Source: an uncultured Pedosphaera sp. (lineage in GTDB: Bacteria > Verrucomicrobiota > Verrucomicrobiia > Limisphaerales > Pedosphaeraceae). From it: DNA of 64,000 nt. The notes beneath the pieces are model-generated. The model worked only from the letters and a program-made list of their open reading frames with translations. It ran no database searches and was not told the DNA's origin. Shown here in pieces: positions 8,897 to 48,017 of the stretch (position 1 is its first letter; each line of letters opens with the position of its first letter). The stretch is taken from assembly GCA_903918755.1 (NCBI GenBank), contig CAIXFN010000014.1, positions 186,001 through 250,000 on the forward strand. The letters run 5' to 3'. The position numbers and the translations under genes are program-made.

Positions 8897-8912
8897 GATT
8901 CAGTTGGCTACC

Positions 8913-10906: not shown

Positions 10907-10935
10907 AGGTTGATACTTCAGATTCGCGGTCGGTC

Positions 10936-12953: not shown

Positions 12954-12956
12954 ATT

Positions 12957-13916: not shown

Positions 13917-13917
13917 A

Positions 13918-14886: not shown

Positions 14887-14894
14887 ACCAGGTG

Positions 14895-19561: not shown

Positions 19562-20536
19562 ATGGCAAGCAACCCAACAGCAACATCCGCCGGGCCTTTG
19601 GTTGAATTTCGCGCCGAATTCGCGCGATGCTGGAACCGCTTGCCCAACAAGGCTTTATTTTTCACCCTGTTGGCCGCCTGGCTGCTGCTGTTCCAGTTTT
19701 TGGGAACCTGTACCTTCGGTTACGTGGACACGACCTCGTTGATGTACTGGCTGTATAATGCCTTCGTCAAAAGTGCCGGTAATGAGGACCATGGATTGCT
19801 GATCCCGTTTGTCGTTTTGGTCCTGTTTTGGTGGAAGCGGGAACAGTTGCTGGCCTTGCCGAACCGGCTTTGGTCGCCGGGGCTTATTTTGCTGGCCCTG
19901 GCTTTGCTGGTGCATGCGGTGGGCTACCGGGTGCAGCAACAGCGGCTCTCGGTCCTGGGTTTTTTCGGTGGAATTTACGCGCTGATGGCGCTGGCTTGGG
20001 GGCGGGCCTGGTTGCGTGCGGCTTGGTTTCCCTTTTTCCTCTTCGCTTTTTGCATTCCCATCGGCTCGCTGGCGGAGACGGTCACTTTTCCCCTCCGCAT
20101 CATGGTCACCAAGATCGTGGCCACGGTGGCCCATATCCTGGGGTTGGATGTGATCCGGGAGGGAACGCAATTGTTCAACTCGTCCCACACCTACAGTTAC
20201 GAGGTGGCGGCGGCCTGTTCCGGGTTGCGCAGTGTGATTGCCATCCTTTGCCTTTCCACCATTTATGGATTCGTCGTCTTTCGCAGTCCCTGGAAGCGGT
20301 TGCTGATGATCGCGGCCGCTTTTCCCCTGGCGGTGCTGGGGAATTCCCTGCGGATGATGTGCATTATTGCCGCGGCGGAAGTTTCGGGTCAGGAAACCGG
20401 CAATTATGTTCATGAAAGCGCCATTTTCAGCTTGCTGCCGTACGTGCCCGCCATTGCCAGCGTGATGGCGCTGGGCCATTGGCTGCGCGAGCAGCCGCCC
20501 GAACCCACTCTGCCTTTGCAACCCAAAACGGTATGA
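19562..20536 (+). CDS. Exosortase (transmembrane cysteine transpeptidase)
   Basis: 324 residues with about eight membrane helices. The exosortase/archaeosortase catalytic triad is present: Cys219 in EVAAACSGLRS, Arg264 in LGNSLRM, and His284 in NYVHESAIFS. Exosortases cut short C-terminal sorting signals (PEP-CTERM and variants) and transfer the protein in the membrane, usually in species that make exopolysaccharide. The next gene encodes the usual EpsI partner, and its start overlaps this stop by 4 bases (ATGA). The subclass cannot be decided here: no protein with an evident PEP-CTERM or related tail is encoded in the window. Confidence 0.93.
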   Translation: MASNPTATSAGPLVEFRAEFARCWNRLPNKALFFTLLAAWLLLFQFLGTCTFGYVDTTSLMYWLYNAFVKSAGNEDHGLLIPFVVLVLFWWKREQLLALPNRLWSPGLILLALALLVHAVGYRVQQQRLSVLGFFGGIYALMALAWGRAWLRAAWFPFFLFAFCIPIGSLAETVTFPLRIMVTKIVATVAHILGLDVIREGTQLFNSSHTYSYEVAAACSGLRSVIAILCLSTIYGFVVFRSPWKRLLMIAAAFPLAVLGNSLRMMCIIAAAEVSGQETGNYVHESAIFSLLPYVPAIASVMALGHWLREQPPEPTLPLQPKTV

Positions 20537-21288
20537 ACCGCTCCACTTGGCTGACTTTGAGCCTGGGTCTGGCCTTGATTGGCGGCACCGGGGCCTTTCT
20601 GGCCTGGTCCAACACCCACCAAAAGCTCGGGCGTCCGGGCATCCGGACCACGGCCATTCCCGGCAGTCCGCGGCTCGAACTGTATTTGCCTCCACAAGTG
20701 GCGGATTTCAAAAGTGAACTGGTGGCGACGGACACCAATCTGCTGCTGTTCATGCCGCCGGACAGCAGCTTCGCGCAACGTATTTATACCGCGCCGGATG
20801 GCTGGCAGGCGGCCGCGGGACTGGTGCTGATGGGCACGGACCGTTCCACGATTCATAAGCCCCAGTTTTGCCTGGTGGGCCACGGTTACACTCTGGACGA
20901 CGCCAATTCCACCGCCACGACCATCCGGATGACGCGGCCGCAGCCTTACGATTTGCCAGTGATGAAGTTGCTGACCACGCGGGAAGCGGCAGGCCCGGAC
21001 GGGCAAAAGGCGACCCGGCGTGGTGTCTACATCTACTGGTTTGTCGCGGACGGTCGGCTGACCGCCAGTCATGATGCCCGGATGTGGGAAATGGGTTGGC
21101 AACTGTTGAAGACGGGAGTGCTTCAGCGCTGGGCTTATATCACCTATTTCGCCGAATGCCCGCCTGGTTACGAGTTGGAAACCTACCGACGATTGGAGCA
21201 CCTGATTCAAGTCTCGGTGCCGGAATACCAATTGGTTCCCGGCGCCCAGGTGGCGGGCCGGAGTACGGCCCAAGCCGCCCTTCACTGA
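20533..21288 (+). CDS. EpsI-like exosortase-associated protein (DUF3485)
   Basis: 251 residues from ATG 20533, chosen because it overlaps the exosortase stop (ATGA); the frame is open further upstream, but only inside the exosortase gene. A signal anchor covers residues 5-25 (TWLTLSLGLALIGGTGAFLAW). The remainder is the periplasmic EpsI domain with the typical segment RRGVYIYWFVADGRL and KTGVLQRWAYITYFAE. EpsI proteins occur alone or fused to exosortases and are needed for exopolysaccharide export or sorting in some species; the mechanism is not known. Translational coupling here suggests a 1:1 partnership with the exosortase. Confidence 0.88.
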   Translation: MNRSTWLTLSLGLALIGGTGAFLAWSNTHQKLGRPGIRTTAIPGSPRLELYLPPQVADFKSELVATDTNLLLFMPPDSSFAQRIYTAPDGWQAAAGLVLMGTDRSTIHKPQFCLVGHGYTLDDANSTATTIRMTRPQPYDLPVMKLLTTREAAGPDGQKATRRGVYIYWFVADGRLTASHDARMWEMGWQLLKTGVLQRWAYITYFAECPPGYELETYRRLEHLIQVSVPEYQLVPGAQVAGRSTAQAALH

Positions 21289-21387: not shown

Positions 21388-22779
21388 ATGTTACGCCGCA
21401 ATCGCCAGATTAAAACACAAATCCAACAATGCGTGGATGCGTGTGTCTTCGCGTTTAGTTTTTGGTTTGCCTGGCGGCTCCGGGCGGATCCCTGGATCAT
21501 GGAGTGGCTCAACCTCAACCCCATTACTCCGTTCGACTCGTACACCTATGTTTTTCTGGTTTTGATTCCGGCCGGACCGCTGGTCCTCGAAGCGCAGGGG
21601 TTTTACGACCGGTCGGCGCTTTCGCCCCGGCGGATGGCGTTCCGGGCTTTGTTAAAAGGTTGTTTGGTCACCACCCTGGGTTTGATCCTCATCCTTTTCT
21701 TTGTACGCCGCGAACTGGCGCGTTCGGTGCCCCTGCTTTTCGGCGTGATCGGTTTCCTCTTGGTGCTGGCCAAGGAGGAATTGATGCGGCTGGGCTTGCG
21801 CAGCAAATTTGCCCGGGCGCAAATGGAGCGGCGGTTCGTGCTGGTGGGCACCGCCGAGGAGACTGCCGCCATGCGCGAGCGGCTCAAAGTGGACTGGCAC
21901 CAGGGCATGGTGGTGCTGGCGGAATTGAACCTGAACAAAACGCCAGTCACCGAACTGGCGCATTTGCTGCACGAACATTCCGTCAATGGCGTGATCCTGA
22001 ACGCGCGGCACAATGACTTTGAGCAGATCGAGGCCGCGATTCGCACTTGCGAATTGGAGGGCGTGGAGGCCTGGCTCGTGGCGGATTTCTTCAAACCCCA
22101 ACTCTCCCGGACCAGTCTGGATGATTTTCAGGGCCGGCCGGTGCTGGTTTTTCGTTCAACCCCCGAGGATTCGTGGCAAAGCGTCGCGAAGCAATTGCTG
22201 GATTTCATCCTGGCCGCCAGCATGCTGATCGTGATGTCGCCGATTTTGCTCGTCGTCAGCCTCCTGATCAAATTCACCTCGCCGGGGCCGATCCTGTTCA
22301 AACAGCAGCGTTGTGGCCTGAACGGGCAGCCTTTCACCATTTATAAATTCCGGACCATGGGCACCGACGCCGAGCAGCGCAAGGCGGAGCTTGCCGCCAT
22401 GAATGAAATGACGGGGCCGGTGTTCAAGGTGACGAACGATCCCCGCATCACCAAGGTGGGGACGTATTTGCGCAAATTCAGCCTCGATGAGTTTCCCCAA
22501 TTGCTCAATGTGTTGCGCGGGGAAATGAGCATGGTCGGACCGCGGCCGCTCCCGGTGGACGAGGTGAAACGCTTCGACGATCTGGCGCATCGGCGCCGGC
22601 TCAGTGTCAAGCCGGGGCTCACCTGCCTCTGGCAGATCAGCGGCCGCAATAACGTGAAGGATTTCCGCGACTGGGTCCGGCTGGATTTGGAATATATCGA
22701 CAACTGGTCGATCTGGCTGGATTTGAAAATTCTTTGGCTTACGATTCCCGTGGTGGTGCTTGGTACTGGGGCCAAATGA
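21388..22779 (+). CDS. Polyprenyl-phosphate sugar-1-phosphate transferase (WbaP/WcaJ type)
   Basis: 463 residues. Four N-terminal membrane spans (first about 14-30) lead into a cytoplasmic Rossmann-like domain (RRFVLVGTAEETAAM ... NGVILNA). The C-terminal PF02397 catalytic domain has a re-entrant hydrophobic segment (FILAASMLIVMSPILLVVSLLI) and the family motifs FTIYKFRTM, SLDEFPQLLNVLRGEMS, MVGPRPLP, RLSVKPGLTCLWQISGR and DLEYIDNWS. It transfers a hexose-1-phosphate from a UDP sugar to undecaprenyl phosphate, starting a repeat unit of an exopolysaccharide. The sugar cannot be read from sequence. Context with exosortase, EpsI and a UDP-sugar enzyme fits an EPS locus. Confidence 0.93.
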   Translation: MLRRNRQIKTQIQQCVDACVFAFSFWFAWRLRADPWIMEWLNLNPITPFDSYTYVFLVLIPAGPLVLEAQGFYDRSALSPRRMAFRALLKGCLVTTLGLILILFFVRRELARSVPLLFGVIGFLLVLAKEELMRLGLRSKFARAQMERRFVLVGTAEETAAMRERLKVDWHQGMVVLAELNLNKTPVTELAHLLHEHSVNGVILNARHNDFEQIEAAIRTCELEGVEAWLVADFFKPQLSRTSLDDFQGRPVLVFRSTPEDSWQSVAKQLLDFILAASMLIVMSPILLVVSLLIKFTSPGPILFKQQRCGLNGQPFTIYKFRTMGTDAEQRKAELAAMNEMTGPVFKVTNDPRITKVGTYLRKFSLDEFPQLLNVLRGEMSMVGPRPLPVDEVKRFDDLAHRRRLSVKPGLTCLWQISGRNNVKDFRDWVRLDLEYIDNWSIWLDLKILWLTIPVVVLGTGAK

Positions 22780-22829: not shown

Positions 22830-23852
22830 ATGGCCGGAATCGCCAAACCCAAAGCGGGGCGCCAGGCTCCTTCAGCTACCCCCACCTCGGTGGTGACGGG
22901 TGGGGCGGGATTCTTGGGTTCGCATCTCGTGGATTATCTCCTGGCCGCCGGGCACCGGGTGGTGGCCATCGACAATTTTGTCACCGGTTCCGTGGACAAT
23001 ATCGCCCACCTCGGGGGCAATCCGCGTTTCAAATTCATCCAACAGGATGTGACCGAGTTCATTTTTCTCGAAGGTCCGGTCGATTTCGTCTGGCATTTTG
23101 CTTCCCCGGCGAGTCCCATCGATTATTTGGAGATCCCCATCCAAACGCTCAAAGTGGGCTCTTTGGGGACCCACAAAGCGCTCGGCCTGGCGAAGAACAA
23201 AGGAGCGCGATTTTTGTTGGCCTCGACTTCCGAGGTGTACGGGGATCCCCTGGTGCATCCTCAGACGGAAGCCTATTGGGGCAACGTGAACCCCATTGGC
23301 GTGCGGGGTTGCTACGATGAGGCGAAGCGCTTCGCGGAGGCCATGACGATGGCCTACCACCGGGAACACGGGGTGGCGACCCGGATCGTGCGCATCTTCA
23401 ACACCTACGGCCCGCGTATGCGTTTGCTGGATGGACGGGTGGTGCCGGCGTTTATTGGGCAGGCGTTGAAGCATCGGCCTCTGACCGTGTTTGGCGGCGG
23501 GGAGCAGACCCGCAGTTTTTGTTACGTTTCGGATTTGATCGAGGGAATTTACCGATTAATGAACAGTTCCACGCATGAGCCTGTCAATATTGGTAACCCA
23601 CAGGAAATGACCGTCCATGAATTTGCCCAAGCCATCATCCAGGCGACCGGTGCCCGCAGTCGGGTGGTCTTTCGGCCGCTCCCGGTGGATGATCCGCGGC
23701 AAAGGCAACCGGATATTACCCGGGCCCGGTCCTTGCTGCGGTGGGAGCCGAAAGTTAATTTGAACGAAGGATTGGAAAAGACTATCGCTTTTTTTCGCGA
23801 GCGCCTATTATCCACTTCACTCCGCAGGAAAACCCGGAGCAAAGAAAACTAG
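22830..23852 (+). CDS. NAD-dependent sugar epimerase/dehydratase, probably UDP-glucuronate decarboxylase
   Basis: 340 residues. An NAD-binding [10 protein letters not shown] (24-33), a catalytic Tyr162/Lys166 pair (YDEAK) and a Ser in [12 protein letters not shown] mark an extended short-chain dehydrogenase. The sequence [17 protein letters not shown] and [12 protein letters not shown] are hallmarks of the UXS group, which converts UDP-glucuronate to UDP-xylose. It probably provides an activated pentose for the polymer started by the neighbouring transferase. The gene starts 50 bases after the transferase gene. A related UDP-sugar activity is the main alternative. Confidence 0.9.
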
Positions 23853-23969: not shown

Positions 23970-25892
23970 ATGTTAAACTCAAAGTCATTTTTGACGGTCG
24001 ATTTCGGTGCCGGAAGTCTCAAGCTGGCCGAATTCGAGGTAAATGAGTCCGGCGGCCTCCGGCTGAAGCAATATGGTTTTCGTTCGCTGGGCGCGGAAGG
24101 CTCGCAGGAGGCCACCCGCGAAGCCACCATGCAGAAGGCCTTGATCGAGTTGCTGGCGGAAAAGGGTGTCCGGTCGAAAAACGTCAATGTCTGCGCCCCA
24201 GGTTTTCACGTTTTCTCGAAGTTCGTCAAACTCCCGCCGGTCGAACCTGCCAAGGTCACGCAGATCATCCAATACGAAGCGCAGCAAAATGTTCCCTTTC
24301 CGCTGGCTGAAGTAGTGTGGGATTACCAGATTCTCGGCACCACTGCGGGCGGGGAGTTGGAAGTCCTGCTGGTGGCCATTAAGTCCGACATCGTGGAAGG
24401 TTTGTTCCGCGTCACCGAGTCCGCCGGACTGCGGCTCCAATTGGCGGATGTCTCGCCCGCCGCCCTCTGCAATGCCTTCCGCTACAATTATGGCGACTTG
24501 GAAGATTGCACGATGCTGCTCGACATCGGCGCCAAGACGAGCAACCTGCTCTTCTTTGAAAAGGGCAAAGTATATTCCCGGAGTATCAATCTGGGGGCGA
24601 ATTCCATCACCACGGATTTCGAAAAGGAATCGAAACTGAGTTTCACGGAAGCGGAAAAGAAAAAGATCAGTGAAGGCTTTGTGAGCCTCGGTGGCGCGTA
24701 TGAAGAGCCCGAAAACGCGCATCAGGCCGCGATTTCAAAGATTGCCCGTCAGTTCATGACCCGGCTGCACATTCAGGTCAATCAGACCATGCAGTTTTAT
24801 CGGGGACAGCAGGGGGGGGCGGCGCCGCAACGGCTCTTCCTTTCCGGCGGTGCGTCGGTCATGCCGTACACGGCGCAATTTTTTCAGGAAAAACTGAATC
24901 TGCCGGTCGAATACTTCAATCCTCTGCGGAACGTCCAGATTGATCCGGGGATTAACCTGGAAGAGTTGGCGCGGGTGGCCCATTCGCTCGGCGAAGTGGT
25001 GGGATTGGGGCTGCGCAACTTGGCGCATTGCCCGGTCGAGTTGAACCTGATGCCCGAGAGCACCCTCAACTGGGTCAATTTCAACCAGAAAAAGCCTTAT
25101 CTCATCGCCACCGTGTTCAGCCTCGTGGTGGTGGTCTTTGCCGCGGGTGTTTTGTTCGACAAATTAAACGAAGTCAACAAGCAGGAATTGCAGGTTCTGG
25201 AACAACAAATCAACCCGCTGACCGCCCGCAAGACCCAATTTCAGAAGGCGCTGGCGGATCTGGAAAAATCCAAAAAGGATGCCACGCAAATCACCACCTG
25301 GATGGATGACCGGTATTATTGGGGTGAAGTGCTTGGGGAGTTGCACAACATCATGATCCAGGTGGAGTCGGAGACCAGCAACAAGCTGCACACCGCCACC
25401 GGGGTCTGGATTGAGACCTTTACCACGGATGGAGAGACTCCGGCGACGGATCCCTCCGCCGGCTTTGTCAACCCTTTCAATGCCCCCAACCCGGCCGGCG
25501 GTGGCGTTCCGCCGCGGGATGCGGCCTGGATGCGTCGTTACGGTCGCCAGGCAACGGGAGGTGCTCCTCCGCCGGCGCCACCGGCTCCTGGTGCACCCGA
25601 TGCAGGCACCACTCCTGGAGCGCCTGCCACGGCGAAAGTAAAACCGGCCAAACCCACCGCCACCAACGAAGTGGACACCATCACCATGATGTGTCGGGCC
25701 GTTGACGTATCGGCCACGGGTGGCCCCTCCGCCACCACTGACATGGCTTTTGCAGTTCGGGACGCGCTTAAAGAGAGCCCGATGTTCGACAAGGAAGAAA
25801 CCCAGCTCACGAGCGCCGTGAGTCCAACCGATGACCACAGCACCTTCACCTTCAATGTGATCGTGAAACTGAAAAAGCCATTGAAGTTATAG
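23970..25892 (+). CDS. PilM-PilN-like fusion of Amuc_1101 type
   Basis: 640 residues. Residues 1-350 are an actin-like PilM domain, with nucleotide-binding blocks DFGAGSLKLAE (11-21), DIGAKTSN (185-192) and FLSGGASVM (290-298). A membrane helix (about 377-395), a coiled coil (about 398-440) and a periplasmic end follow, as in PilN, with a Pro/Ala-rich linker (about 505-565) before the last beta domain. In type IV pili PilM binds the cytoplasmic N-terminus of PilN; here both appear in one chain. The locus matches the Akkermansia Amuc_1101 family. The next gene starts one base after the stop. No pilus ATPase or platform protein is nearby. Confidence 0.86.
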   Translation: MLNSKSFLTVDFGAGSLKLAEFEVNESGGLRLKQYGFRSLGAEGSQEATREATMQKALIELLAEKGVRSKNVNVCAPGFHVFSKFVKLPPVEPAKVTQIIQYEAQQNVPFPLAEVVWDYQILGTTAGGELEVLLVAIKSDIVEGLFRVTESAGLRLQLADVSPAALCNAFRYNYGDLEDCTMLLDIGAKTSNLLFFEKGKVYSRSINLGANSITTDFEKESKLSFTEAEKKKISEGFVSLGGAYEEPENAHQAAISKIARQFMTRLHIQVNQTMQFYRGQQGGAAPQRLFLSGGASVMPYTAQFFQEKLNLPVEYFNPLRNVQIDPGINLEELARVAHSLGEVVGLGLRNLAHCPVELNLMPESTLNWVNFNQKKPYLIATVFSLVVVVFAAGVLFDKLNEVNKQELQVLEQQINPLTARKTQFQKALADLEKSKKDATQITTWMDDRYYWGEVLGELHNIMIQVESETSNKLHTATGVWIETFTTDGETPATDPSAGFVNPFNAPNPAGGGVPPRDAAWMRRYGRQATGGAPPPAPPAPGAPDAGTTPGAPATAKVKPAKPTATNEVDTITMMCRAVDVSATGGPSATTDMAFAVRDALKESPMFDKEETQLTSAVSPTDDHSTFTFNVIVKLKKPLKL

Positions 25893-25893
25893 T

Positions 25894-26961
25894 ATGTCTT
25901 GGATCAAGCGGAATCTGTATTTTGTCATCGGTGGACTGGTGGCACTCGGCTTAATGGGCTACGGCGGCTTTGTCTTGTGGACCGCCTATTCCAACGAGGG
26001 CGCCTCTGCCGAGGAAATCATCAAACAGTACGGCGTACTGGATGAACTCAATAAACAAAACCCCCACCCGGGCTCCACGGGCAAGGTGGATAACGTCAAG
26101 GCGGCCAAAGATCAGGAGGGCCTGCTCCGGGTATTTATCGCGAAGGCGCGCGGTCTTTTTGTCACGCCTCCTCCGATTCCCTCCGGCGAAAAGGTGGATG
26201 ATCAGAAGTTCTCCAACCAACTGCTTTACACCATTGCCGAATTAAACCGGGAGGCCAAGGCAGCCAGCGTGACCTTGCCGGAAAATTACGCGTTTACTTT
26301 CGCTTCCCAACGGTTTCTCACCCAGTTTGACCCCGGGAGCATTGAGCCTCTCGCCATGCATCTGGGGGAAATCAAGACGATTTGCGACGTGCTTTTTGCC
26401 GCCCGGATCAATGCCTTGGAGGGCATTCAGCGGGAGGTGGTTTCGGCCAAAGACCAGAATGTCTCCGATTATTTGACGACGCAAAAAACCATGGTTACGC
26501 CGCTGGGTGATTTGACTCCCTATCGGGTTGTGTTTCGTTGTTTTAGCGCGGAATTGGCGGAGGTCCTCAGCGGTTTGGCCAGTTCGAGTCACGGTTACAT
26601 CGTCAAGACCATCAATGTGGAGCCGGCGGCGCCGATTGCTGACCCGGGAGTTCCCTCGCCCGGAACCGTTCCGGCCTTGGCCACGCCGATGCCGATGACT
26701 CAGGCGGAGCGATATAACATGCGTTACGGCCCACGCAACCCTGGTGGGCCGCCTCCGGTTGCCCCGGTTCCCGTTGCTGCCCCGCCGGTTAGCAAACCTA
26801 CGGTGCTCCTGAATGAGCGGCAGTTAAAAGTAACCCTCATGATTGAGGTGGTCAAACTTAAGAACCCGGACGAAGCCGCGAAACCCAAGCCCGGCGCTCC
26901 CGCCGCCGCCGCCGGTCGCTCCCGCAATCCCGCTCCCGCTCCCGCCGCCCCTAACCAATAA
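25894..26961 (+). CDS. Amuc_1100-like pilus-associated single-span protein
   Basis: 355 residues. One N-terminal membrane helix (about 9-30) is followed by a helical stretch and a mixed alpha/beta periplasmic part, then Pro/Ala-rich linkers (about 250-315) and a conserved-looking LKVTLMIEVVKLKNPDEAA. The architecture, size and order (PilM-like, this, Amuc_1099-like, secretin) correspond to Amuc_1100 of Akkermansia, whose protein resembles a PilO/GspM-like pilus component and signals to host TLR2. The match is by architecture and position, not by a database search. A role in the alignment complex between inner membrane and secretin is likely. Confidence 0.72.
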   Translation: MSWIKRNLYFVIGGLVALGLMGYGGFVLWTAYSNEGASAEEIIKQYGVLDELNKQNPHPGSTGKVDNVKAAKDQEGLLRVFIAKARGLFVTPPPIPSGEKVDDQKFSNQLLYTIAELNREAKAASVTLPENYAFTFASQRFLTQFDPGSIEPLAMHLGEIKTICDVLFAARINALEGIQREVVSAKDQNVSDYLTTQKTMVTPLGDLTPYRVVFRCFSAELAEVLSGLASSSHGYIVKTINVEPAAPIADPGVPSPGTVPALATPMPMTQAERYNMRYGPRNPGGPPPVAPVPVAAPPVSKPTVLLNERQLKVTLMIEVVKLKNPDEAAKPKPGAPAAAAGRSRNPAPAPAAPNQ

Positions 26962-26972
26962 GTAATATTTCC

Positions 26973-27755
26973 ATGGAGTTCATAAAGAAAAATTACGAGA
27001 AGGTATTGCTGGTCGTGGTGCTTTCCGCCCTGACCATCGGGGTGTGCTTGCTGCCGTTTTACCTTTCGCACAAGCGGCAGGATCTGGCCGACAAACGAAC
27101 CGAGAAGCTCATGACGAAAGTCAAGGAGTTGGCCGCCTTGGATATGGCGGCCTTTGAGGGATCGGCGAAACGCGCTCAAACTCCCGTGCAGTACGAGTAC
27201 ACCCGCAATCACAACCTTTTCAATCCGATCCTCTGGCAAAAAACTCCCCCCCCGGAAAGCCGCCTGATCAAGGGCGAGATTAAAAAGCAGGGGCCCGAGA
27301 CTTTGGAAGTGGTGGAGATTCGCCCCTTGTATCTTCGAATGGCCTACGAGGGCATGAGCGGCACGCGTTACACCATTGGTTACACCAACGAGGCGGCTGT
27401 CAAGTCATCCCAACGCTCCGGACAGCATCTTGCCATTCGCGACGAAAAATGGGATTTGTTCACCCTGCGGGAAGTCAAGGGCGCCCCGGAAAAGCCGACT
27501 GAACTGGTTTTTGAGCTGACCGAGGGCGGTCCCGCTGTGTCTCTTTTCCCCGGGAAAGTCTATGAACGGGTGGAGGGGTATGAAAGTGATCTGCGTTACC
27601 CGCCCGAGCAGAATAAACTTTTCCGCAAGCAACGCCGCGATTCCAAGTTGCAATTGGGCGGCGATAAATACAAAATCGTTGCCATCACCGCGAGCAACGT
27701 TGTAGTATTTGCCGAAGAAAATCAAAAAAAGACGACGATCAACTATAAGCCGTAA
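26973..27755 (+). CDS. Amuc_1099-like single-span pilus-system protein
   Basis: 260 residues. One membrane helix (about 9-30, KVLLVVVLSALTIGVCLLPFYL) is followed by a Lys/Arg-rich region, then FNPILW and a beta-rich domain in two parts: SRLIKGEIKKQGPETLEVVEIRPLYLRMAYEG and KYKIVAITASNVVVFAEENQKKTTI. A short beta domain before a secretin gene resembles the PilP/GspC homology region that contacts the secretin N-domains; this is inference from fold and place. It lies 11 bases after the Amuc_1100-like gene and 41 bases before the secretin start. Confidence 0.7.
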   Translation: MEFIKKNYEKVLLVVVLSALTIGVCLLPFYLSHKRQDLADKRTEKLMTKVKELAALDMAAFEGSAKRAQTPVQYEYTRNHNLFNPILWQKTPPPESRLIKGEIKKQGPETLEVVEIRPLYLRMAYEGMSGTRYTIGYTNEAAVKSSQRSGQHLAIRDEKWDLFTLREVKGAPEKPTELVFELTEGGPAVSLFPGKVYERVEGYESDLRYPPEQNKLFRKQRRDSKLQLGGDKYKIVAITASNVVVFAEENQKKTTINYKP

Positions 27756-27796
27756 CCGATTTGCGTTGGAATTTTCCTGTCCACGCCACCAAACCC

Positions 27797-30496
27797 ATGA
27801 TTAAAGCAGCCTCCCCATTGTTGTTCCTTCTTTCTTTTCTTGCCGCCGTCTCACCGCTGGGGGCACAAACCAATCCGGGCGATGTCGGCCTCGCGAGTGG
27901 CGAAGGATTCCGCCGCCAGGCGGCGACCATTGAATTGCGCCAGAAATTGGTTCAGGCCGAGGGCGCGCAGCAACGTAAAGATTTGGTTTCGGCCGCCCGG
28001 CTCTATGAGCAATGCCAAACCTTGGTCGAGCGCATCGGTTCCAACGTTGATGCCGAAAGCAAGCGGGTTACGACTGGCTTGGACACGGTACTCTTGGAAT
28101 TGGCTCGGGAGGCCATGAAACATCAGGATTACAAAACCGCCGATGAGCACATCAAACGGATTTTGATCGTCGATCCGCATAATCAGGAAGCTTATGCGCT
28201 GCAAAAGCAGAACAATCTGGCCATCCAGGCGAGCGCGGGAATGAAGCCCACCCAGGAAATGTTGGATAAACTGCCCCAGTTCGAGACCAATGCAATTCAT
28301 TCGGCGACCTTGGTGCAAAATGGCAAGTTTCTTTACGAGGCTGGCAAATATGATGAAGCCGAAGTGCAACTGGATCTTGCCCTCAAGGAGGATCCTCGCA
28401 ATCTGGCGGCTGCCAAATACATCAATTTGATCAAGGAGCGGAAAATGGGGCAAGCCACCCGGGCGAGTGAACTCGCCTCTCGCAATGCCTTGGTTCAGGT
28501 GGAGGAGGCTTGGGATGTTCCGCTGCGCAAATTGTCGGAACAACGCCCAAATCTGTGGGCGCGCACCAACCTGGTATTCACCAGCAAGGGCCGGCAGGAT
28601 ATTTTGCGGAAATTAAACGCCATCACCATCGACACGATCAAGTGGGATGGCCTTCCCCTCACTGAAGTCATTAACAACCTCGGCGAACTGACGCGGGCTC
28701 GCGATCCAGATAAACTCGGGGTTAATTTCATGCTCAACCGGGAACAACCCGGCACCGGAACTACTGGCATTCCGATTATCGACCCCACGACCGGTCTTCC
28801 CGCTCCCGCTGCTCCCACGGGTGAAGGTGCCGATATCGGAGCGGTCGTTATCAAAGTCAATCCGCAACTCAACAATCTCCATCTGGGCGACGTTCTTGAC
28901 GTGATTACCAAATCCTCCGACAAGCCCATTAAGTTTAGCATCGAGGACTACGCCGTTTCGTTTTCGCTAAAAGCTCCGGAAGCCGAGCCGATGTATACCC
29001 GCACTTTCCGGGTCAATCCTGACACCTTTGAACAGGGCCTGGCAGCGGTTTCTGGTGTGGCCTTCGCCGGCTCAACGGCGAGCAGCGGCAGCAGTGGTGG
29101 CGGTGGTGGCGGTGGTGGCGGTGGTGGTGGTGGTGGTGGTTCCGGCGGCGGACAAAACGGTGGCGGCAACGTGGTCATTCCCCAAGTCTTTCCTGCCGGC
29201 GGTGGTGGCGGCGGTCAAACTGGCGGTGGTGGCGGCGGTCAAACCGGTGGTGGTGGCGGTGGCGGCACCGGCGGTGGGCTTCGTAATATCACCCAGACCA
29301 ACTCCATGGCGAACATGCAGCTCATGGTCCGGAATTTCTTCAACCTTGCCGGGCTTAATTTCAGCACCAACCCCGTGGCAGGGTCCGCGGGTAAAGCCAT
29401 GTTCTTTAATGATCGCAAAGGCGTGCTCTTCGTGCGGTCAACGCTGTCAGACTTGGAGCTCATCGCCCAGGCGGTTGAGGCCCTCAACGTCGCTCCCCCG
29501 GAAATCAACATCAAGGCCAAGTTTGCCGAAATCACCCAGAATGACAGCCGCGCTTTGGGCTTTGATTGGTTCCTGGGTAACGTTCTGACCGCCGGTGGCA
29601 ACGCCGCGATTTCCGGCGGCACCGTTCCCACGCTGACTGGGGCGCCCACGACGGCCAATCCCGGTGGGAATTTCCCGACTGGCGGTACGGCCGGCCCGTC
29701 TTCCACGGATGGTCAAATCACCTCCGGTCTCCGGAACGCCGGGGTGCCGACCTTGGGAACGTTCACGGGCTTGTTGACCCAGCCTCAATTCCAGGTTGCC
29801 TTGCACGCCCTCGAACAGCGGGATGGCACCGATCTGCTTCAGGCGCCCGAAATCACCACCGAAAGTGGTCGGCAGGCACAAATTCAAGCGGTGGAAGTTC
29901 AAACCATTGTCACCGGTGTCGGCAATACGGGAACCGCCACTGCGCAAGCCCCCACCACCACGACGGCGGTGTTGCAACAGATTAGCCCCAGCTTTAACTA
30001 CAACACCAGCCCGCTGCCGTTCGGGCCCGTCTTGGACGTGATTCCTTATGTCTCGGCGGATGAATTTTCGATCCAGATGACGATCATCCCGACCGTCACG
30101 GAATTCATCGGTTATGATGACGCGGGCAAGTTTATTCCCACGGCGGCTGTGGTGGGTGGCAGTGCGGTGCCCCTGACGGCGGTGCTGCCCTTGCCCCATT
30201 ATCGCGTGCGCCAATTGGTCACCAGTTGCATCGTTTGGGATGCGCAGACCATTGTCATGGGCGGTTTGCTCACGGACAGCGTCTCGCGCGTCAAGGACAA
30301 GGTCCCCTTCCTCGGTGATATTCCCTTCCTGGGACAACTTTTCACCAGTGAATCGTCCACCAAGACCAAGAAAAATCTGATGATCTTTGTCACCCCCACC
30401 ATCATCAACCCGGATGGTTCTCGGTATCACTCGGACGACGAAATGCCCTTTGCGCAGAACACGGTGCCTCCCCAAACCCGGGTTATGGCCCAATAA
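27797..30496 (+). CDS. Type IV pilus-like outer-membrane secretin (Amuc_1098 type) with polyglycine tract
   Basis: 899 residues from ATG 27797. A TTG 36 bases upstream is in frame but would put sequence in front of the clear signal peptide (ASPLLFLLSFLAAVSPLGAQ). Residues about 40-250 are helical repeats, TPR-like. STN/N-domain-like segments follow (LPLTEVINNLGEL, NNLHLGDVLDVI). A glycine tract (about 433-494) precedes a further N-domain (INIKAKFAEITQNDSRALGFDW) and the secretin barrel (about 640-870), whose end VPFLGDIPFLGQLFTSE is the family signature. It forms the ring channel for pilus or pseudopilus export. It is the last gene of the pilM operon. Confidence 0.92.
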   Translation: MIKAASPLLFLLSFLAAVSPLGAQTNPGDVGLASGEGFRRQAATIELRQKLVQAEGAQQRKDLVSAARLYEQCQTLVERIGSNVDAESKRVTTGLDTVLLELAREAMKHQDYKTADEHIKRILIVDPHNQEAYALQKQNNLAIQASAGMKPTQEMLDKLPQFETNAIHSATLVQNGKFLYEAGKYDEAEVQLDLALKEDPRNLAAAKYINLIKERKMGQATRASELASRNALVQVEEAWDVPLRKLSEQRPNLWARTNLVFTSKGRQDILRKLNAITIDTIKWDGLPLTEVINNLGELTRARDPDKLGVNFMLNREQPGTGTTGIPIIDPTTGLPAPAAPTGEGADIGAVVIKVNPQLNNLHLGDVLDVITKSSDKPIKFSIEDYAVSFSLKAPEAEPMYTRTFRVNPDTFEQGLAAVSGVAFAGSTASSGSSGGGGGGGGGGGGGGGSGGGQNGGGNVVIPQVFPAGGGGGGQTGGGGGGQTGGGGGGGTGGGLRNITQTNSMANMQLMVRNFFNLAGLNFSTNPVAGSAGKAMFFNDRKGVLFVRSTLSDLELIAQAVEALNVAPPEINIKAKFAEITQNDSRALGFDWFLGNVLTAGGNAAISGGTVPTLTGAPTTANPGGNFPTGGTAGPSSTDGQITSGLRNAGVPTLGTFTGLLTQPQFQVALHALEQRDGTDLLQAPEITTESGRQAQIQAVEVQTIVTGVGNTGTATAQAPTTTTAVLQQISPSFNYNTSPLPFGPVLDVIPYVSADEFSIQMTIIPTVTEFIGYDDAGKFIPTAAVVGGSAVPLTAVLPLPHYRVRQLVTSCIVWDAQTIVMGGLLTDSVSRVKDKVPFLGDIPFLGQLFTSESSTKTKKNLMIFVTPTIINPDGSRYHSDDEMPFAQNTVPPQTRVMAQ
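29095..29279 (+). repeat. GGN trinucleotide-rich low-complexity tract in the secretin gene
   Basis: Two blocks of repeated GGT/GGC codons (about 29095-29140 and 29200-29279) encode runs of glycine, broken by GGGQNGGGNVV and GGGQT units. The tract is in frame and so could gain or lose units without frameshift. Confidence 0.9.
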
Positions 30497-30538
30497 ATCC
30501 TGTAATCCGAATTGACGTACCAAATTTGGAAAAGCCAC

Positions 30539-30603
30539 CCTGCTTGCCGCAAAACCAGCCACCCATCAGGTTCACTCGGTGTGGCTGAAATGCGGCAGGC
30601 AGG
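30539..30603 (+). other. Long two-step hairpin after the secretin gene
   Basis: Outer arms CCTGCTTGCCGCA (30539-30551) and TGCGGCAGGCAGG (30591-30603) pair over 13 positions with one G-U. Inner arms CAGCCAC (30556-30562) and GTGGCTG (30581-30587) pair perfectly over 7. The loop is 18 bases. No T-tract follows. It fills most of the 147-base gap between the pilus operon and the next gene. It could be a transcript boundary, an RNA-processing or stability element, or a palindromic repeat unit. Confidence 0.7.
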
Positions 30604-30643
30604 AGAACCCGAGAATATTGGACAAGTGGGAACGGCTCTGTTA

Positions 30644-32563
30644 ATGTATTCAAAATCTATGTCACCACTGCAGCGCGCAATCAAAACGCTGGGGATCTTA
30701 AGTCTGGCCCTCGCCGCTCCCGGGTTGGTCCATGCCCAATCCGGATTCAGCCCGCAAGCGCAGGAATTTGTCCCCTTGGGAAATCTTCCTGGTGACCAAA
30801 TCCGGCCGGCTGTCGCGTTCACCAACGCCGGCGGCTGGATAGTTTGGCAGGACAATATCACGGATGGCAGCGGCTTCGGTATCAGCGCCCAGCGTCTGGA
30901 TAGTTCCCTTTCCGCCACTTTCAACCCGTTCCGGGTCAACCAGCAGGGGAGTAATGACCAGCAAAATGCCAAAATCAGCCTGCTTGGCAACGGCGGGGCT
31001 GCGATCATCTGGCAGGGGGGCGCCACGAGCTATCAGCACGTTTACGCTCGTTTCATTGCCACCAACGGAACTTTTCTGACCGGCGAATTTCAGGTCAATA
31101 CCGCCACCAACTTTCAAGTCAACCCCACGATCACCACGCTGGCGAATGGCAACTTGGTGGCTCTGTGGTCCAGCTTCAACCAGGCATCCGCCGGGAGTTT
31201 GCAGGACGTTTATGGCCAATTGCTGAGTCCCAACGGCCAAAAAATCGGTGGTGAATTCGCGGTTAACACGTTCCAGGTCAACAACCAACGGACTCCCGCT
31301 ATTGCCGCGCTACCTGCCGGTGGTTTTGTCGTCACCTGGGTTTCCGAACTGCAACGGGCAACCAACGGCGTGGACATTTTTGCCCGTGTTTTTAATGCGA
31401 ATGCCGCCCCAGTCACCAGCGAATTTTTGGTGAACAGTGGAACCAATGTTTGCGCCAACCCGGCCGTGGCCGCTTCCAAGGACGGGACCTTCATGATCAC
31501 TTGGGGGGAGAAAGATACCGCAGTGCTGAACAATGACTGGGATATTTACGCCCGTCGATTCACGGCGGGTGGGAGTGGTGGGACGACTTTCCGGGTTAAC
31601 ACGCAACGCTTTGGTCCTCAATTCCTTCCGCAAATCGCGGCCGTTCGATCTGGTTATCAAATTGTCTGGACCAGCGTGGGGCAGGACGGTTCTCGCGAAG
31701 GTGTCTACAGCCAGTTTGTCGCCGCTGACGGATCACCGCTTTCTTCGCTGTCGGGCAACGGGACGGTGCTGTGGGAACTCCCCGTGAACACCACCACCTT
31801 AAACTCCCAGATATATCCCGCTATTGCGGCGGATGGATCAGGTCGGTCAATGGTGGTCTGGTCCAGCTACACCGGGGGGTTAAACAGCATGGATCTCTAC
31901 GCTCAGCGCTATTCCTCGGCTCAACAGTCGCTTCCCGCTCCCGGGGCGCCCTTTGTCGCCGCTGTCAGTGGCGATCGCTTAACGGTGACTTGGCCAAACG
32001 TCGCGGGCTTTCAGGTGGCCAACTACGATTTATACATCGATGGCTCCGCGGTTCCTACGGTGGTGAGCAACAATTATTTTTCTGTGGCCGGCCTTGCCCC
32101 TTCCAGCACGCACAGCTTCCAGTTGGATTATGTGCTGGTGGGCGGTCAGCATTCACCCCTGTCAGCCACCACCTCCGGAACAACCTGGGCGGCGGATGTC
32201 AATGGTGATGGGCTGCCCGATGATTGGCAGGCTCTTTATTGGGGATCAAATTCTAGTCATTGGCCCTCCGCCGGGACTCTTTTGGCAGCCAAAGGGCCAA
32301 CTGCGGAAACCGTATTTCTGTGGGGAGCCAATCCCCTGTTGCCGGCCACCTGGCTCACGACAGCCATTCAGGAGACAACGCAGGGAACATTCCTTTCCTG
32401 GAATACTCAGCCGGGTGGTGTCTATCAGGTTTTAACCTCCAAAGATCTCAACAATTGGACCAATCTGGGCAGTTCACGATTCGCGGCGGGGACCAACGAC
32501 TCTGTGTTCGTCGGGCTCTCTGCGGGGGGGAATTTTTACAAGATCAATCGTATCCGGTATTAA
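30644..32563 (+). CDS. Secreted propeller-like repeat protein with fibronectin III and C-terminal FYR-type module
   Basis: 639 residues from ATG 30644; ATG 30659 is an equally possible start. The frame continues upstream across the hairpin, but with no signal peptide placed at the start. The signal peptide is IKTLGILSLALAAPGLVHAQ. Five to six repeats of the form (V)YGQ-L-x-G-x-x-x-GGEF-VNT ... P-I-x-x-LxxGxxVxxW fill residues about 35-425 and suggest a beta-propeller. A fibronectin-III-like domain (about 430-516) and an Asp-rich EF-hand/dockerin-like motif DVNGDGLPDDW follow. The last 55 residues contain a module (LSWNT, GVYQVLTSKDLNNWT, NFYKI) shared with neighbouring proteins. Probably surface-bound or secreted; ligand unknown. 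Confidence 0.78.
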   Translation: MYSKSMSPLQRAIKTLGILSLALAAPGLVHAQSGFSPQAQEFVPLGNLPGDQIRPAVAFTNAGGWIVWQDNITDGSGFGISAQRLDSSLSATFNPFRVNQQGSNDQQNAKISLLGNGGAAIIWQGGATSYQHVYARFIATNGTFLTGEFQVNTATNFQVNPTITTLANGNLVALWSSFNQASAGSLQDVYGQLLSPNGQKIGGEFAVNTFQVNNQRTPAIAALPAGGFVVTWVSELQRATNGVDIFARVFNANAAPVTSEFLVNSGTNVCANPAVAASKDGTFMITWGEKDTAVLNNDWDIYARRFTAGGSGGTTFRVNTQRFGPQFLPQIAAVRSGYQIVWTSVGQDGSREGVYSQFVAADGSPLSSLSGNGTVLWELPVNTTTLNSQIYPAIAADGSGRSMVVWSSYTGGLNSMDLYAQRYSSAQQSLPAPGAPFVAAVSGDRLTVTWPNVAGFQVANYDLYIDGSAVPTVVSNNYFSVAGLAPSSTHSFQLDYVLVGGQHSPLSATTSGTTWAADVNGDGLPDDWQALYWGSNSSHWPSAGTLLAAKGPTAETVFLWGANPLLPATWLTTAIQETTQGTFLSWNTQPGGVYQVLTSKDLNNWTNLGSSRFAAGTNDSVFVGLSAGGNFYKINRIRY

Positions 32564-32569
32564 GCGTTT

Positions 32570-34948
32570 ATGTTCCTAACAATTAAGAGATCGAGCCTGG
32601 CCCTGATACTGGTGCTATTGGTATTGGGAAGCCCCGCCGTCTATGGTTTTTCGCTGCTCGGGCCTCATGCGATTCCCAACGGAGCAGACGCCTTCCAACA
32701 GCCGGTCATTGGCTACAACCTTACTCCCGCCAACAACGATCGCGCTGATGTCGGCGATCCCAAGAACCTGAATGAGGATTACCGCTGGAATGCCGGGGAT
32801 ATATATTACGCCTTTGACAGTTCCTTCATCACCTATTTTGGCACCAACGGGATGGCCGAGGTGGACAAGGCGTTTGCCATTTATAATTCTCTGAAGAATG
32901 TTTCCGCCTACAGCAGTGATCTAAGTGAGTGGCCCACGTTGACCACCTTCGTTAACTACCGCGCCAATGCGGCGGGTTTGATCGATATTAAGTCGGTCGT
33001 CATGGAATTCATTATCGAGCAGTTGGGTCTTGCTCAGCCGGAGCGTTATACCTATGCCCTGCACGAACGCGTCCTGCCTCCCAATGCCAAATGTCCCGCC
33101 TACAACTATGCGGTCATTCAGCGGAATTACGACCCCGTGAGCCAGGTTTACAGCAGTTTCGTCAACGGCACGCTTTACGGTTATAGCATTTTTGAAACTT
33201 GCGGTTTCGCTGTCAACCCGTTGCCGGGCGTGGGGGCGGAGACGGCCATCTACGCTGTCGATGCTGACTCCTACAATATTTATAATACCGTAGCCGCTGG
33301 CGATATTTCCACGGGCGGAATCTATACCTTCGGCACGAGTGTGGGATCCGGTGGGACATCATTTGGTCAGTATTACACCGGTTTGACCCGGGATGATGTG
33401 GGCGGGTTGCGCTATTTGCTTTCGTCCAACCGGGTGCACATGGAAGCTGTGGATGGCACCAGCTTGCTGGTCAGCACCAACACCTCCGGTGGCCAGCAAC
33501 TTTTGACGACCCGTGATTATGGTCTTTTCGCTGCGCAAGCGTTGACCAACAATGCAGCCGCCCTTCAGGCTTTATATCCTGGCTTGGTCATCCTCAATTC
33601 GCGTTCCTATTTCGCCTTGCAGGTCACCACCAATTTCATTGCCAGTCTCACCAACCTGCCATTTTCCCCGGTTGGCAGCGTTCCCAATGTTCTTTTGACG
33701 CCCTTCTACACCACCAATATTACGACTTATTACCAACACACTTTCGGCAATATTGTCATCAATCCCACTTTGGCGCATCCCGAAGGCGAAGGTGCGTTCA
33801 CGAACGGTTACAAGACAATTTTGACCACGAGTTCAATCAACTATCAATGGAAGCCGGTCAATTCCACAAATTTGATCGCAACCAATACGACTGCGGTAAA
33901 TGCCACGACCGCTTTGGTTACCAACTTCCCCAATGGTGAGTTTTACATATTTCCCCAGGCGGAATGCGGACCTTACGTCCTGACGAGTCAATTCTATACC
34001 TTTATTACGGCAACTACCAATACGACCGGCACGGTAACCATCGCCCCGGGCAGCACCGGTTTGGTCGCGTCCGCTGTGAGCACCGTGACTTACGTGACGA
34101 ATCATGACTTCATCTACTATGCCGTTCAATGTGACACCGCGCCCGTTACTCTTCGGGCGGGCATTGAGAAGGTGAATTTTCACCGTCAGGATTATGATTC
34201 ACTGATTGGGACCAGTTGGACGCCGGTTACCAACTACCACACGATCGTCAGCATTACCAATTCAACGCGCACAGCTGATCGCTTTCAACGGATTTTGAAT
34301 CAGCCTGATTTCGTCTTCTTCGCTCAGGATCTCATTGTTCCTGGAGTCGGGGCTCCGGTTGTTCCTTCCGTCCTGCGGACCACTCCGCGTTATAACTTTA
34401 CGGTGGCTAATACCACCGGGTTGGCTGGACCAGGAACGATTGGGCCGCCGAATCTTGCCAGCGGACCCCTTTCCCTTACCTTCAATAAGGGAGTGCCCGC
34501 CACGCTAAACTCATACCAAGGCACTATTTTGGATGAAGGAACCGCATTTTCTACCTATTTGTGGGGTTCTTACGACGGAACGACCAACGCTCCCGTCGTG
34601 TATCCGAGCACCGCCAGCCTGAACAATTACGAGAATTCGTTGTTCCTGCAAATTACGACCCCCATGGTGCTTCCCACCGGCCATCAAGGGAAGGCTTACA
34701 CAGCGCAGATTCAAGCGACGGGTCAATCGCCGGCTCCCTACACTTGGTCTTTCGTCGGGGTGGGATTGCCGCCGGGACTGACTAAATCCGCACCGATTAC
34801 CGTGGTCAATACCCCCACGAGCACCACCTCTACTATAACCATTTCAGGGACGCCTACCACGACCGGAATTTTTGACTACGTTGTCCAAGTTTCGGATAGC
34901 ACCGGCCGGGCATCGCAGTTGAATTTTGTGATCGAGATCGACCTTTAA
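32570..34948 (+). CDS. Secreted protein of unknown function with C-terminal Ig-like (putative Ig/cadherin-type) domain
   Basis: 792 residues, starting 6 bases after the preceding gene. A signal peptide (LALILVLLVLGSPAVYG) is clear. The N-terminal 300 residues have no family I recognise; a repeated pattern begins with NEDYRWNAGDIYYAFDSSFITYFGTNG and may be a peptidase-like or binding domain, but no HExxH was seen. The middle is Thr/Asn-rich beta sequence. The final about 95 residues resemble the He_PIG type Ig-like domain (LPTGHQGKAYTAQIQATG, LPPGLTKSA, ITISGTPTTTGIFDYVVQVSDSTGR). Unlike its neighbours it lacks the FYR-type ending. Context suggests an envelope or secreted function. Confidence 0.75.
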   Translation: MFLTIKRSSLALILVLLVLGSPAVYGFSLLGPHAIPNGADAFQQPVIGYNLTPANNDRADVGDPKNLNEDYRWNAGDIYYAFDSSFITYFGTNGMAEVDKAFAIYNSLKNVSAYSSDLSEWPTLTTFVNYRANAAGLIDIKSVVMEFIIEQLGLAQPERYTYALHERVLPPNAKCPAYNYAVIQRNYDPVSQVYSSFVNGTLYGYSIFETCGFAVNPLPGVGAETAIYAVDADSYNIYNTVAAGDISTGGIYTFGTSVGSGGTSFGQYYTGLTRDDVGGLRYLLSSNRVHMEAVDGTSLLVSTNTSGGQQLLTTRDYGLFAAQALTNNAAALQALYPGLVILNSRSYFALQVTTNFIASLTNLPFSPVGSVPNVLLTPFYTTNITTYYQHTFGNIVINPTLAHPEGEGAFTNGYKTILTTSSINYQWKPVNSTNLIATNTTAVNATTALVTNFPNGEFYIFPQAECGPYVLTSQFYTFITATTNTTGTVTIAPGSTGLVASAVSTVTYVTNHDFIYYAVQCDTAPVTLRAGIEKVNFHRQDYDSLIGTSWTPVTNYHTIVSITNSTRTADRFQRILNQPDFVFFAQDLIVPGVGAPVVPSVLRTTPRYNFTVANTTGLAGPGTIGPPNLASGPLSLTFNKGVPATLNSYQGTILDEGTAFSTYLWGSYDGTTNAPVVYPSTASLNNYENSLFLQITTPMVLPTGHQGKAYTAQIQATGQSPAPYTWSFVGVGLPPGLTKSAPITVVNTPTSTTSTITISGTPTTTGIFDYVVQVSDSTGRASQLNFVIEIDL

Positions 34949-34951
34949 GTT

Positions 34952-37900
34952 ATGAAGCGATTGTTTTCCACCTGTCTTTTGGTGTTTTTGGCGCTGACCC
35001 GGTCGGCTTCATCACAACCCAGTCTCGGTTATACCAATTTGGGGAATGTGCTGGCTCCCCTGAACATTGACGCCTACAATTTTGTCAATGCCGGGACGGT
35101 CGATCTCACCGGTTACGGACTGCTGTTTTCGTTTAGCGACACTACCAATTTTGTCAACCGGGGGACAATGACCAGTGACATCGGTTTTGTCTTTGATACT
35201 GAACCCACCAGCGGGAGTGCCGGTGTTCATGCCGCTGCCTCCTTTAACAACGCCAGCACCGGGACAATCAAGGGATCCTCTCCGGTGCTCAAAGCCACTG
35301 GTGTCGTGGGGCTGAGTTTGCAAGGTCCGCAAGTGCGGGTGACGGCTAACGCAATAACCAATGCGGGCGACATCCACGTGGGGATTGGTGGGTTAATACG
35401 CCTGGCGGGTAATAACCTCAACTTGAAGAACGGCACCTTGGAGGTGGACGGCGTGAGTGCTTCCTCAAGTGCGACCAATATTATCTTCACCGGAATCAGT
35501 GGACTGTTGACCTCCATTCCGGGTTTGTTTCCGGGGGTTTATCCCTCGGGAGTTTACGATACCTATTGGGGTGTCGGGACCGACACAAATACGCAAATCT
35601 CCTTCCAGTATCCCCTGTTTGCAACCAGCGGGGTCTATGACCAGACAAACTCGGGTTCCAGTTTCGCGCTGCTGCAAAGCCAGTTGTCGCTCAACAATTT
35701 GACAGCTTACGGCTATACGGCCGCGATCAATGGGGACACCAGCAATCTGGTCACCCAGATCGTGGTGCTTGGTGACAACAACCTGGATGGCAATATCTCC
35801 ATGTCCGCGCGTTTCGAAGCTGGTTTCCTTGGCAGTAAGCCCAGCGAATTCCCTATTCCGGTGGTGCAGTGGCTTTCGGTTGTCAAAAATTTGCCTGGGC
35901 TCCCTCCGGTCACCAACACGCTTTATCTGACCGATGATTTCGGCGTCCGGACAAACGGTTTTAATATCGTCAAGACCAATTCATCGTCGTTAAGCGGCCA
36001 AATCGGCTACTCCCCCACCAACTACACATTTAGCCGGGTATTTTCAGGCTTTACCAATCTCTCCACCGGCAATTTTCCTGGTGTTGCCAGCATCCTCACC
36101 AACGGGTTGGTTGCGGGCACCACGAATGATTATACTGCGTATGGCGTAACTCTCTTGGCGACCACCGCATCCCCGGATCCGACACACCCCCTGCAAAACA
36201 TTACGAATACGCCGGGGCGGATCGAGATTGTTGGGGCCAACGCCGATTTGACCAAGGTGCGCATCACCGGACCCAATTATTTGAGTTTGACGATCACGAA
36301 CCATTTTACCAATGGAGGAAACGCTCAAATCTCCGCGCCGACCGAGGATCTAAATCTCGCCACGACGAACGGCATCCTTCTAGTGACGAATCTGGTGGCC
36401 CCTTATCTCCCGCAATTTAGTGGCACGATCGATATGTATAGCACCCGTTGGACGAACATCTTTGCCGGAAGTTCGAACGCAAATGGGACCATCACTCCCG
36501 GATTTACGAACCGTTACCACATGCTCATGCTGCAAAGTCAACTGTCCTCGTTGTCCGTTGCCGCCGTGCAGAACTTTGCCTTGCGCACCACGAATACCGC
36601 CTCGGCCGGCGCCAGTCCAGGCAGCGCCTACAATGGCACGGTATATATCAGCGATTTGCTTAATATCACCAGCAACCTGCAGGTCGTGGCGGACCAGGTA
36701 ATTATCACCACGAATCGGGCTGGTTCGGCCACACCCGAGGGGCAGATTAATCTGAGCAGCGATTTCAATTGGTCCGGGAATTTTCCGACTTTGAAGTCCC
36801 TGAGCAATTACGGACAAATCACGTTGCCTGGATTTGGGCAGTTCTTTCAGGATCGGATGCCCCCATATTATGCGTCCGCGAGCACTGTTGGTTACGCCAG
36901 CTTGGCGAATTACGGAGTGCTTAGTTCGGGTGGCGTAAGCATTTGGGCTACCAATTTTGTGAATGCTGGCACGAATGCTCCCGGCACTTTGGTCACTTTG
37001 ATTAACACTAATTTCTTTTTCCTCACTAACAGCATTCTGTTTAATTTCAACACCTTCTCTTATTCAATTGGACAGGGTTTGATTTCGGCTTCTGCCGGTC
37101 CTGTCATTCTGAGCACCGACAATGGACTGCTCATGAACGGGGAAATTGCCGCACCGATGAGCGATGTCAGCATCACCGCTGGAAATCTCACCATGAGCAA
37201 TCACGGCATTTTGGCGGGTGGGGCGTTGAATCTGGCAATTACCACCAACAATTATACTGTCGACGGAAGTGGTCGCTTTCTGACGAACACCTGGCAGGTT
37301 GGAAACGGTTTCACGATGACCACCAAACCGGTCAGCGGTGACTTCCTCGGCACCACCTTGACCAGCATTCTTCCTCCCCGCGTGGAGGCCGTCAGCACTT
37401 GGGCCGGGATTAATTACGGCGACAGCCCGGCTGGTTTTACCAACAACGGCGCTCTGGGACATTTGATTCTGGATGGGGGTGATATCGACAGCACTTTCAC
37501 CTTTACTGCTGCAAATGGCACCAATAATGCCCTTTATGTGGATTTGCTTGAATTGCGTAATTACGCCACCAACCGGTTGAACCCGGATCTCACCGAGTTG
37601 AATATCGATCCCAATTTCACCATATATTTTGCGGATGCCCGTATCCTTAATAACGATGGTACCACAGCCGACATCTCTGAAAAACTCAATCATGCCAACG
37701 GTGAACGCTTGCGCTGGGTGCCCGGCTTCGCTGGGTTGTTCAGCGGAACAAACGTCACCTATCCTTCGGGCGTTACCTACACCCTCAATCGCCCGTTGGT
37801 TCAGAGCACCGCCCTCGATTCCAATGGCAATGGTATTCCCAATGCTTACGATCCGGCGCCGGTTTTCGTGAGCAGTCAGTTGGTGGTAGGCATGCGTTTG

Positions 37901-38113: not shown

Positions 38114-38205
38114 TTAATGCATTTGGCAGAAGAGTGATTTTGCGAACGTCAAAAGTGATGCGCAGAGTCCGAGTTGACGAGGAAAATTTTAGTCCGGAAG
38201 GTATT

Positions 38206-47910: not shown

Positions 47911-48017
47911 TAGCCCAGCAATTCCGTTAGGGGACAGGTCGGTGGTCGGGTGGGATGAGAGTCCGGAGTAGTTGCAGTTTATTAATTAACGGCAGAAGAG
48001 TTTGGTTTGTAGCTAAA

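Follow-up and report, generated by a model that had tools for sequence, protein, structure and literature searches.

Amuc_1100 of Akkermansia has drawn wide attention as a heat-stable protein with activity on host TLR2, and the literature calls it an outer-membrane protein (PMC5332112, PMC10688800). A four-gene locus resembling the cluster that encodes it lies in a Limisphaerales/Pedosphaera-type genome, with no pilus motor genes beside it. This raises the question of which machine such a locus belongs to, and whether host signalling or an ordinary pilus or secretion function explains its conservation. We examined the locus within the window, that is, the whole 64,000-nucleotide stretch analysed, together with the rest of the genome and 289 sampled genomes of Verrucomicrobiota.

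Four genes related to Amuc_1101–1098

Positions 23970–30496 contain four closely spaced open reading frames on the + strand, encoding relatives of Amuc_1101, 1100, 1099 and 1098 in the same order. These are a PilM-like protein (23970–25892, 640 aa), an Amuc_1100 relative (25894–26961, 355 aa), a short Amuc_1099 relative (26973–27755, 260 aa) and an Amuc_1098-related secretin (27761–30496, 911 aa). The first-pass annotation had proposed these frames and their homology to the Akkermansia cluster in identical gene order, and both proposals were borne out, the homology by NCBIfam, profile and structure matches. The best NCBIfam matches were Amuc_1101_fam (498.3 bits), Amuc_1100_fam (NF038287; 65.5 bits, E 5e-18) and Amuc_1098_fam (323.6 bits), with E-values from 1e-149 to 5e-18, far above chance. 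All three scored under the curated equivalog cut-offs of 650, 180 and 750 bits, respectively, and the proteins are homologous without being filed as equivalogs. The 260-aa protein by itself matched no NCBIfam family, including the Amuc_1099 family NF042425 (threshold 50 bits). In the control locus from Akkermansia all five Amuc cut-offs were passed, and its proteins matched the PDB structures of Amuc_1100 and Amuc_1102. Among the four proteins of the window we found no Pfam or NCBIfam match to PilN, PilO or PilP as such, nor to the GspL, GspM or GspC sequence families; one trans-membrane span was predicted in each of the 640-, 355- and 260-aa proteins.

The 640-aa protein exceeded the PilM cut-off (TIGR01175, 145.1 bits vs 133; PF11104, 126 bits) and matched a solved PilM structure (PDB 3jc8, E 3e-35). 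Its PilM-type actin-like domain (residues 10–350) is followed by the motif ELNLMP (357–362), a trans-membrane segment (378–396) and a periplasmic PilN-like part that matched no family. A motif of the ELNLMP kind occurs at the equivalent place in 73 of 89 homologues. PilN binds PilM by means of an INLLP motif. Because an INLLP-like motif, a single trans-membrane segment and a periplasmic part come after the PilM domain, the most fitting reading of the protein is a natural fusion of PilM and PilN, whose C-terminal part would take the PilN role.

We predicted the structure of the 355-aa protein with AF2 from a 34-row alignment without templates. The model (mean pLDDT 83) comprised an N-terminal trans-membrane helix, a coiled coil and two alpha-beta-beta motifs forming an abb-abb ferredoxin-like core; this is the arrangement that has been reported for Amuc_1100 (PMC13119276). 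In a Foldseek search against the PDB, the ten best matches were all Amuc_1100 chains, 6lad, 6laf and 6kny among the entries matched (E 4e-9 to 3e-8, probability 1.00), at an identity of about 10% over the structural alignment. The next matches were PilO of Pseudomonas (2rjz, E 5e-3) and then of Myxococcus; for 2rjz and 5uvr the probability was 1.00 and E ranged from 5e-3 to 3e-2, and the likeness to PilO is one of fold. The first-pass annotation had named the lack of an Amuc_1100 match, or a best match confined to PilO/GspM families, as the outcome that would count against this kinship; Amuc_1100 came first and PilO second. Searching with the 355-aa sequence alone (phmmer against the PDB) returned nothing, and a profile built only from the order missed Amuc_1100, so the link depends on the NCBIfam model, on structure or on profile-profile comparison (hhalign of order-only against Akkermansiaceae Amuc_1100 sequences, prob 99.7). 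A further match, obtained with profile A1, was discarded as circular because Akkermansia rows were inside that profile. Because PilO ranks directly after Amuc_1100 among the structural matches, the two do not exclude each other, and on its modelled fold the 355-aa protein is most likely a PilO-like inner-membrane alignment protein. That Amuc_1100 structurally resembles proteins of type IV pili and of type II secretion has been published before, as cited in PMC13119276.

The 260-aa protein was linked to Akkermansiaceae Amuc_1099 by hhalign (prob 95, E 4e-8) and otherwise by position. Its AF2 model (pLDDT 87) showed a trans-membrane helix and a beta-rich region, and matched no PilP or GspC structure in the PDB. 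Foldseek gave only weak matches to KOW/Tudor/Kelch-type beta-barrels and propellers, and we do not claim a PilP fold. The protein occupies the PilP position, which is consistent with a PilP role.

The 911-aa protein consists of a TPR region (TPR_2, 26.5 bits), secretin N domains, a Gly-rich linker and a secretin pore at residues 683–882 (PF00263, 104 bits). Translation probably begins not with the TTG at 27761 but with the ATG at 27797, which precedes a signal peptide. Against generic models, GspD scored slightly above PilQ (123 vs 102 bits). The N-terminal TPR region is also present in homologues. Other bacteria have TPR pilotins that help PilQ, and by analogy this region is possibly a fused, built-in pilotin. 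Elsewhere in the same genome (C34:82765-90004), three more ORFs related to this secretin were found: a 1750-aa ORF with TPR, N-domain and secretin regions, and a tandem pair of short secretins (353 and 325 aa). Two or three tandem secretin genes follow the Amuc_1099 relative in some lineages (L089, L105 and L123), and an ORF of 3956 aa that includes a secretin-type region lies at 3795–15665 of locus L069 in contig C49.

Motor genes and distribution in the phylum

The absence of pilB and pilC noted in the first-pass annotation is correct for the window, but not for the genome. Among twelve GspE/PilB/PilT-type ATPase matches in this genome, contig C21 carries PilB (577 aa), PilT (369 aa), a second PilB (568 aa) and PilC (439 aa), along with prepilins and a GspK-like protein, and it contains neither PilM nor a secretin. 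PilT exceeded its cut-off (447.8 vs 319.1 bits); PilB and PilC were best matches under their equivalog cut-offs. In two genomes of another family (G157, locus L116; G015, locus L117), exactly the set pilB-pilT-pilB-pilC immediately precedes Amuc_1102-1101-1100-1099-1098 on one strand, and at L117 three prepilin-type proteins stand between pilC and the Amuc_1102 cluster. In trees, PilB1, PilB2 and PilC of C21 each grouped with their L116/L117 counterparts (support 100/99), apart from the other GspE/GspF proteins of the genome. Because of this contiguity and this grouping, C21 and the window are read as two halves of one pilus operon. Judged from gene order and phylogeny, the L116/L117 set would represent a single type IVa pilus operon that has been split in the window's lineage. 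A PilT copy with 78–96% identity was found in most genomes of the order, always on a contig other than that of the operon; within the limits that draft assemblies set on such a reading, the split appears to hold across the order. The genome as a whole encodes 82 prepilin-type N-termini and several separate GspE/GspF/secretin clusters besides a Tad-like one; its repertoire of type IV filaments is unusually large.

A match to the Amuc_1100 family was present in 224 of the 289 Verrucomicrobiota genomes. The locus had been presented as one outside Akkermansia, which is true, but with this count such occurrence is the rule: the operon is phylum-wide and not rare. The M-O-P-Q order and strand were kept in all 41 first-round loci, drawn from many families, M being missing only at one locus cut by a contig end (L100). 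In a maximum-likelihood tree built from 89 PilM-like proteins, branching followed taxonomy and all 34 rows from the window's order formed a single clade (SH-aLRT 95), which indicates vertical inheritance of the operon and not transfer from Akkermansia. In the nearest named relatives, metagenome assemblies labelled Pedosphaera sp., 'Limisphaerales' or 'Verrucomicrobia subdivision 3', the PilM-like protein was about 75% identical. A MAG titled Akkermansia muciniphila (CAMBEJ010000008.1; L215) encodes a PilM-like protein 56% identical to that of the window, against only 25% for the Akkermansia-type locus (L082), and the record looks mislabelled.

The Amuc_1100 relative was absent from 8 of 13 PilT-negative genomes vs 57 of 276 PilT-positive ones, a suggestive co-occurrence that carries little weight because the counts ignore phylogeny. 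Two families (f4 and f7) were without both PilT and Amuc_1100, a pattern that suggests coordinated loss or a retraction-free variant. Five genomes (G116, G208, G205, G281 and G136) had an Amuc_1100 relative and no PilT over the cut-off. In the open literature we found no account of the phylum-wide operon, of its contiguity with pilB-pilT-pilB-pilC or of the order-level variant described below.

An order-level variant of the locus

No Amuc_1102-like gene was found beside the PilM-like gene in any of the 32 loci of the order with room upstream, vs 47 of 54 elsewhere, and the Amuc_1102 family model NF042424 had no match in this genome at E up to 10. The first-pass annotation had overlooked the absence of this usual fifth gene, here and throughout the order. 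Directly upstream of the PilM-like gene lies a NAD-dependent epimerase/dehydratase (22830–23852, + strand; PF16363/PF01370), separated from it by 117 bases and adjacent in 21 of 30 order loci. At five loci of other families an equivalent epimerase stands directly before Amuc_1102-1101; the window accordingly resembles this arrangement minus Amuc_1102. Further upstream on the + strand, and in about half of the order loci, are an exosortase (EpsH; 19562–20536; PF09721, 153 bits; 11 of 23 loci), an EpsI-like DUF3485 protein (20479–21288; PF11984; 11 of 26) and an EPS priming sugar transferase (21388–22779; PF02397, 230 bits; 13 of 27). The order's Amuc_1099 relatives are shorter than those elsewhere (median 267 vs 344 aa), and alignment showed that they lack the calcium-site-like DxDxDG insert (TSP3) of the longer forms as well as a CxxC..CPFC stretch present in some lineages.

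Downstream, also on the + strand, are three secreted proteins that we call dn1–dn3. The repeat protein dn1 (30512–32563, probable start 30659) has Trp-rich propeller-like repeats, FN3 and a C-terminal YYRVxRxR-type motif, and directly followed the secretin in all 21 order loci with room and in none elsewhere. It is usually followed in the order by dn2 (32570–34948), which combines an order-restricted N-terminal core with a C-terminal Ig/cadherin-like domain; loci outside the order yielded neither protein, and a search of 144 other genomes of the phylum did not detect the dn2 core. The window's genome also has a paralogue of dn2 at C44:38672-39864; it is spread over different reading frames, contains a stop and may be a pseudogene. 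The third, dn3 (34952–38113), is weakly conserved in the order. Searches of dn1–dn3 against PDB and Pfam returned only FN3- and Ig-like domains. Beyond them are two giant secreted proteins, one of 3258 aa (38134–47910) with Calx-beta, DUF5122 propeller repeats and DUF11, and one of 2412 aa (47955–55193) with an M36 fungalysin peptidase, P-domains and six DUF11 domains. Pfam matches bear out the EPS locus and the large secreted proteins reported earlier beside these genes, the former lying upstream and the latter downstream.

On these gene comparisons, the order carries a derived variant of the operon, with no adjacent Amuc_1102, a shortened Amuc_1099 homologue, exosortase/EPS genes often upstream and two secreted proteins downstream. 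It is conceivable, though we consider it rather doubtful, that in Limisphaerales the pilus assembly module was rebuilt as a surface-display apparatus, having dropped Amuc_1102, become associated with exosortase/EPS genes and gained a secretin with dedicated cargo or tip proteins, dn1 and dn2. If so, the machine would deliver an extracellular structure peculiar to the order, either replacing a standard pilus or adding to it.

Competing readings and known systems

On the basis of homology, gene order, the fold of the 355-aa protein, the orthology of the C21 motor with operon-joined motors and vertical inheritance, the four genes very probably encode the alignment complex and secretin, one half of a type IVa-like pilus machine that the motor on C21 would drive. 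The 640-aa fusion would sit at the inner membrane with the 355-aa protein as its PilO-like partner, the 260-aa protein would bridge the inner membrane and the secretin, and the 911-aa protein would be the secretin of the outer membrane, carrying a TPR region of its own. The other half of the split operon, on C21, would supply the motor (PilB, PilT, second PilB and PilC) and the prepilins; ATP hydrolysis by PilB and PilT would drive a pilin filament out and back through the alignment complex and the secretin. The unlinked motor and assembly genes of this genome, and the five Amuc_1100-bearing genomes without PilT over the cut-off, count against a pilus, as do the missing family matches to PilN, PilO and PilP, the 260-aa model without a PilP or GspC counterpart in the PDB and the secretin's slightly higher score with GspD. 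The earlier proposal that the ancestral role was a general secretion or pilus system and not host signalling gains support in its pilus form.

The strongest competitor, which we judge improbable, is a type II secretion-like module (GspL-GspM-GspC-GspD) with a pseudopilus exporting dn1–dn3 and the giant proteins. The one-chain layout of the 640-aa protein (actin-like domain, trans-membrane segment, periplasmic part) is that of GspL, the secretin's best generic models are GspD, dn1 constantly follows the secretin in the order, and several PilT-less genomes retain the Amuc_1100 relative. However, the cytoplasmic domain of the 640-aa protein is PilM by cut-off, the linked ATPase set contains a bona fide PilT, and the other GspE/GspF/secretin clusters of this genome (C14:147-159k, C118, C111 and C78) fit type II secretion better. 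A remnant module, with assembly genes lacking a motor and non-functional in this lineage, would agree with the window's lack of pilB, pilC and pilT and with the undetected Amuc_1102, but is very improbable given that all frames are open and conserved across the order and that an intact orthologous motor exists at C21. A TLR2-type host-interaction locus as in Akkermansia, suggested by the homology to Amuc_1100, is less credible still, with a phylum-wide family, the low identity to Amuc_1100 given above and named relatives that are mostly MAGs from the environment (sediment, bog, lake, groundwater).

The preferred pilus reading can be set against three known systems. With type II secretion, the locus shares the four-gene GspL-GspM-GspC-GspD layout and the GspL-like layout of the 640-aa protein, but its sequence is that of PilM, not GspL, and elsewhere in the phylum it is linked to PilT and PilB. 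With pilMNOPQ of type IVa pili (Pseudomonas, Myxococcus, Thermus), it shares the order PilM-PilN-PilO-(PilP)-PilQ, the PilM sequence, the PilO fold and a secretin; unlike them, PilM and PilN are apparently fused, a TPR region is fused to the secretin, and PilP is replaced by a protein without detectable relationship to it. With Amuc_1102-1101-1100-1099-1098 of Akkermansia, it shares the same four genes in the same order and the same Amuc_1100 fold, whereas Amuc_1102 is missing, the Amuc_1099 relative is short and without the DxDxDG insert, the neighbours are different and all scores are under the NCBIfam equivalog cut-offs. A phylum-wide pilMNOPQ-like operon that is contiguous with pilB-pilT-pilB-pilC in some lineages leads to the prediction that Amuc_1100 of Akkermansia would itself face the periplasm from the inner membrane as a PilO-like subunit, an ordinary pilus component in its local version rather than a protein specialised in host signalling. 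If Amuc_1100 is conserved for pilus assembly, its host activity would be incidental, arising from protein that is released or exposed, and the role of the Amuc_1098–1102 cluster becomes directly testable.
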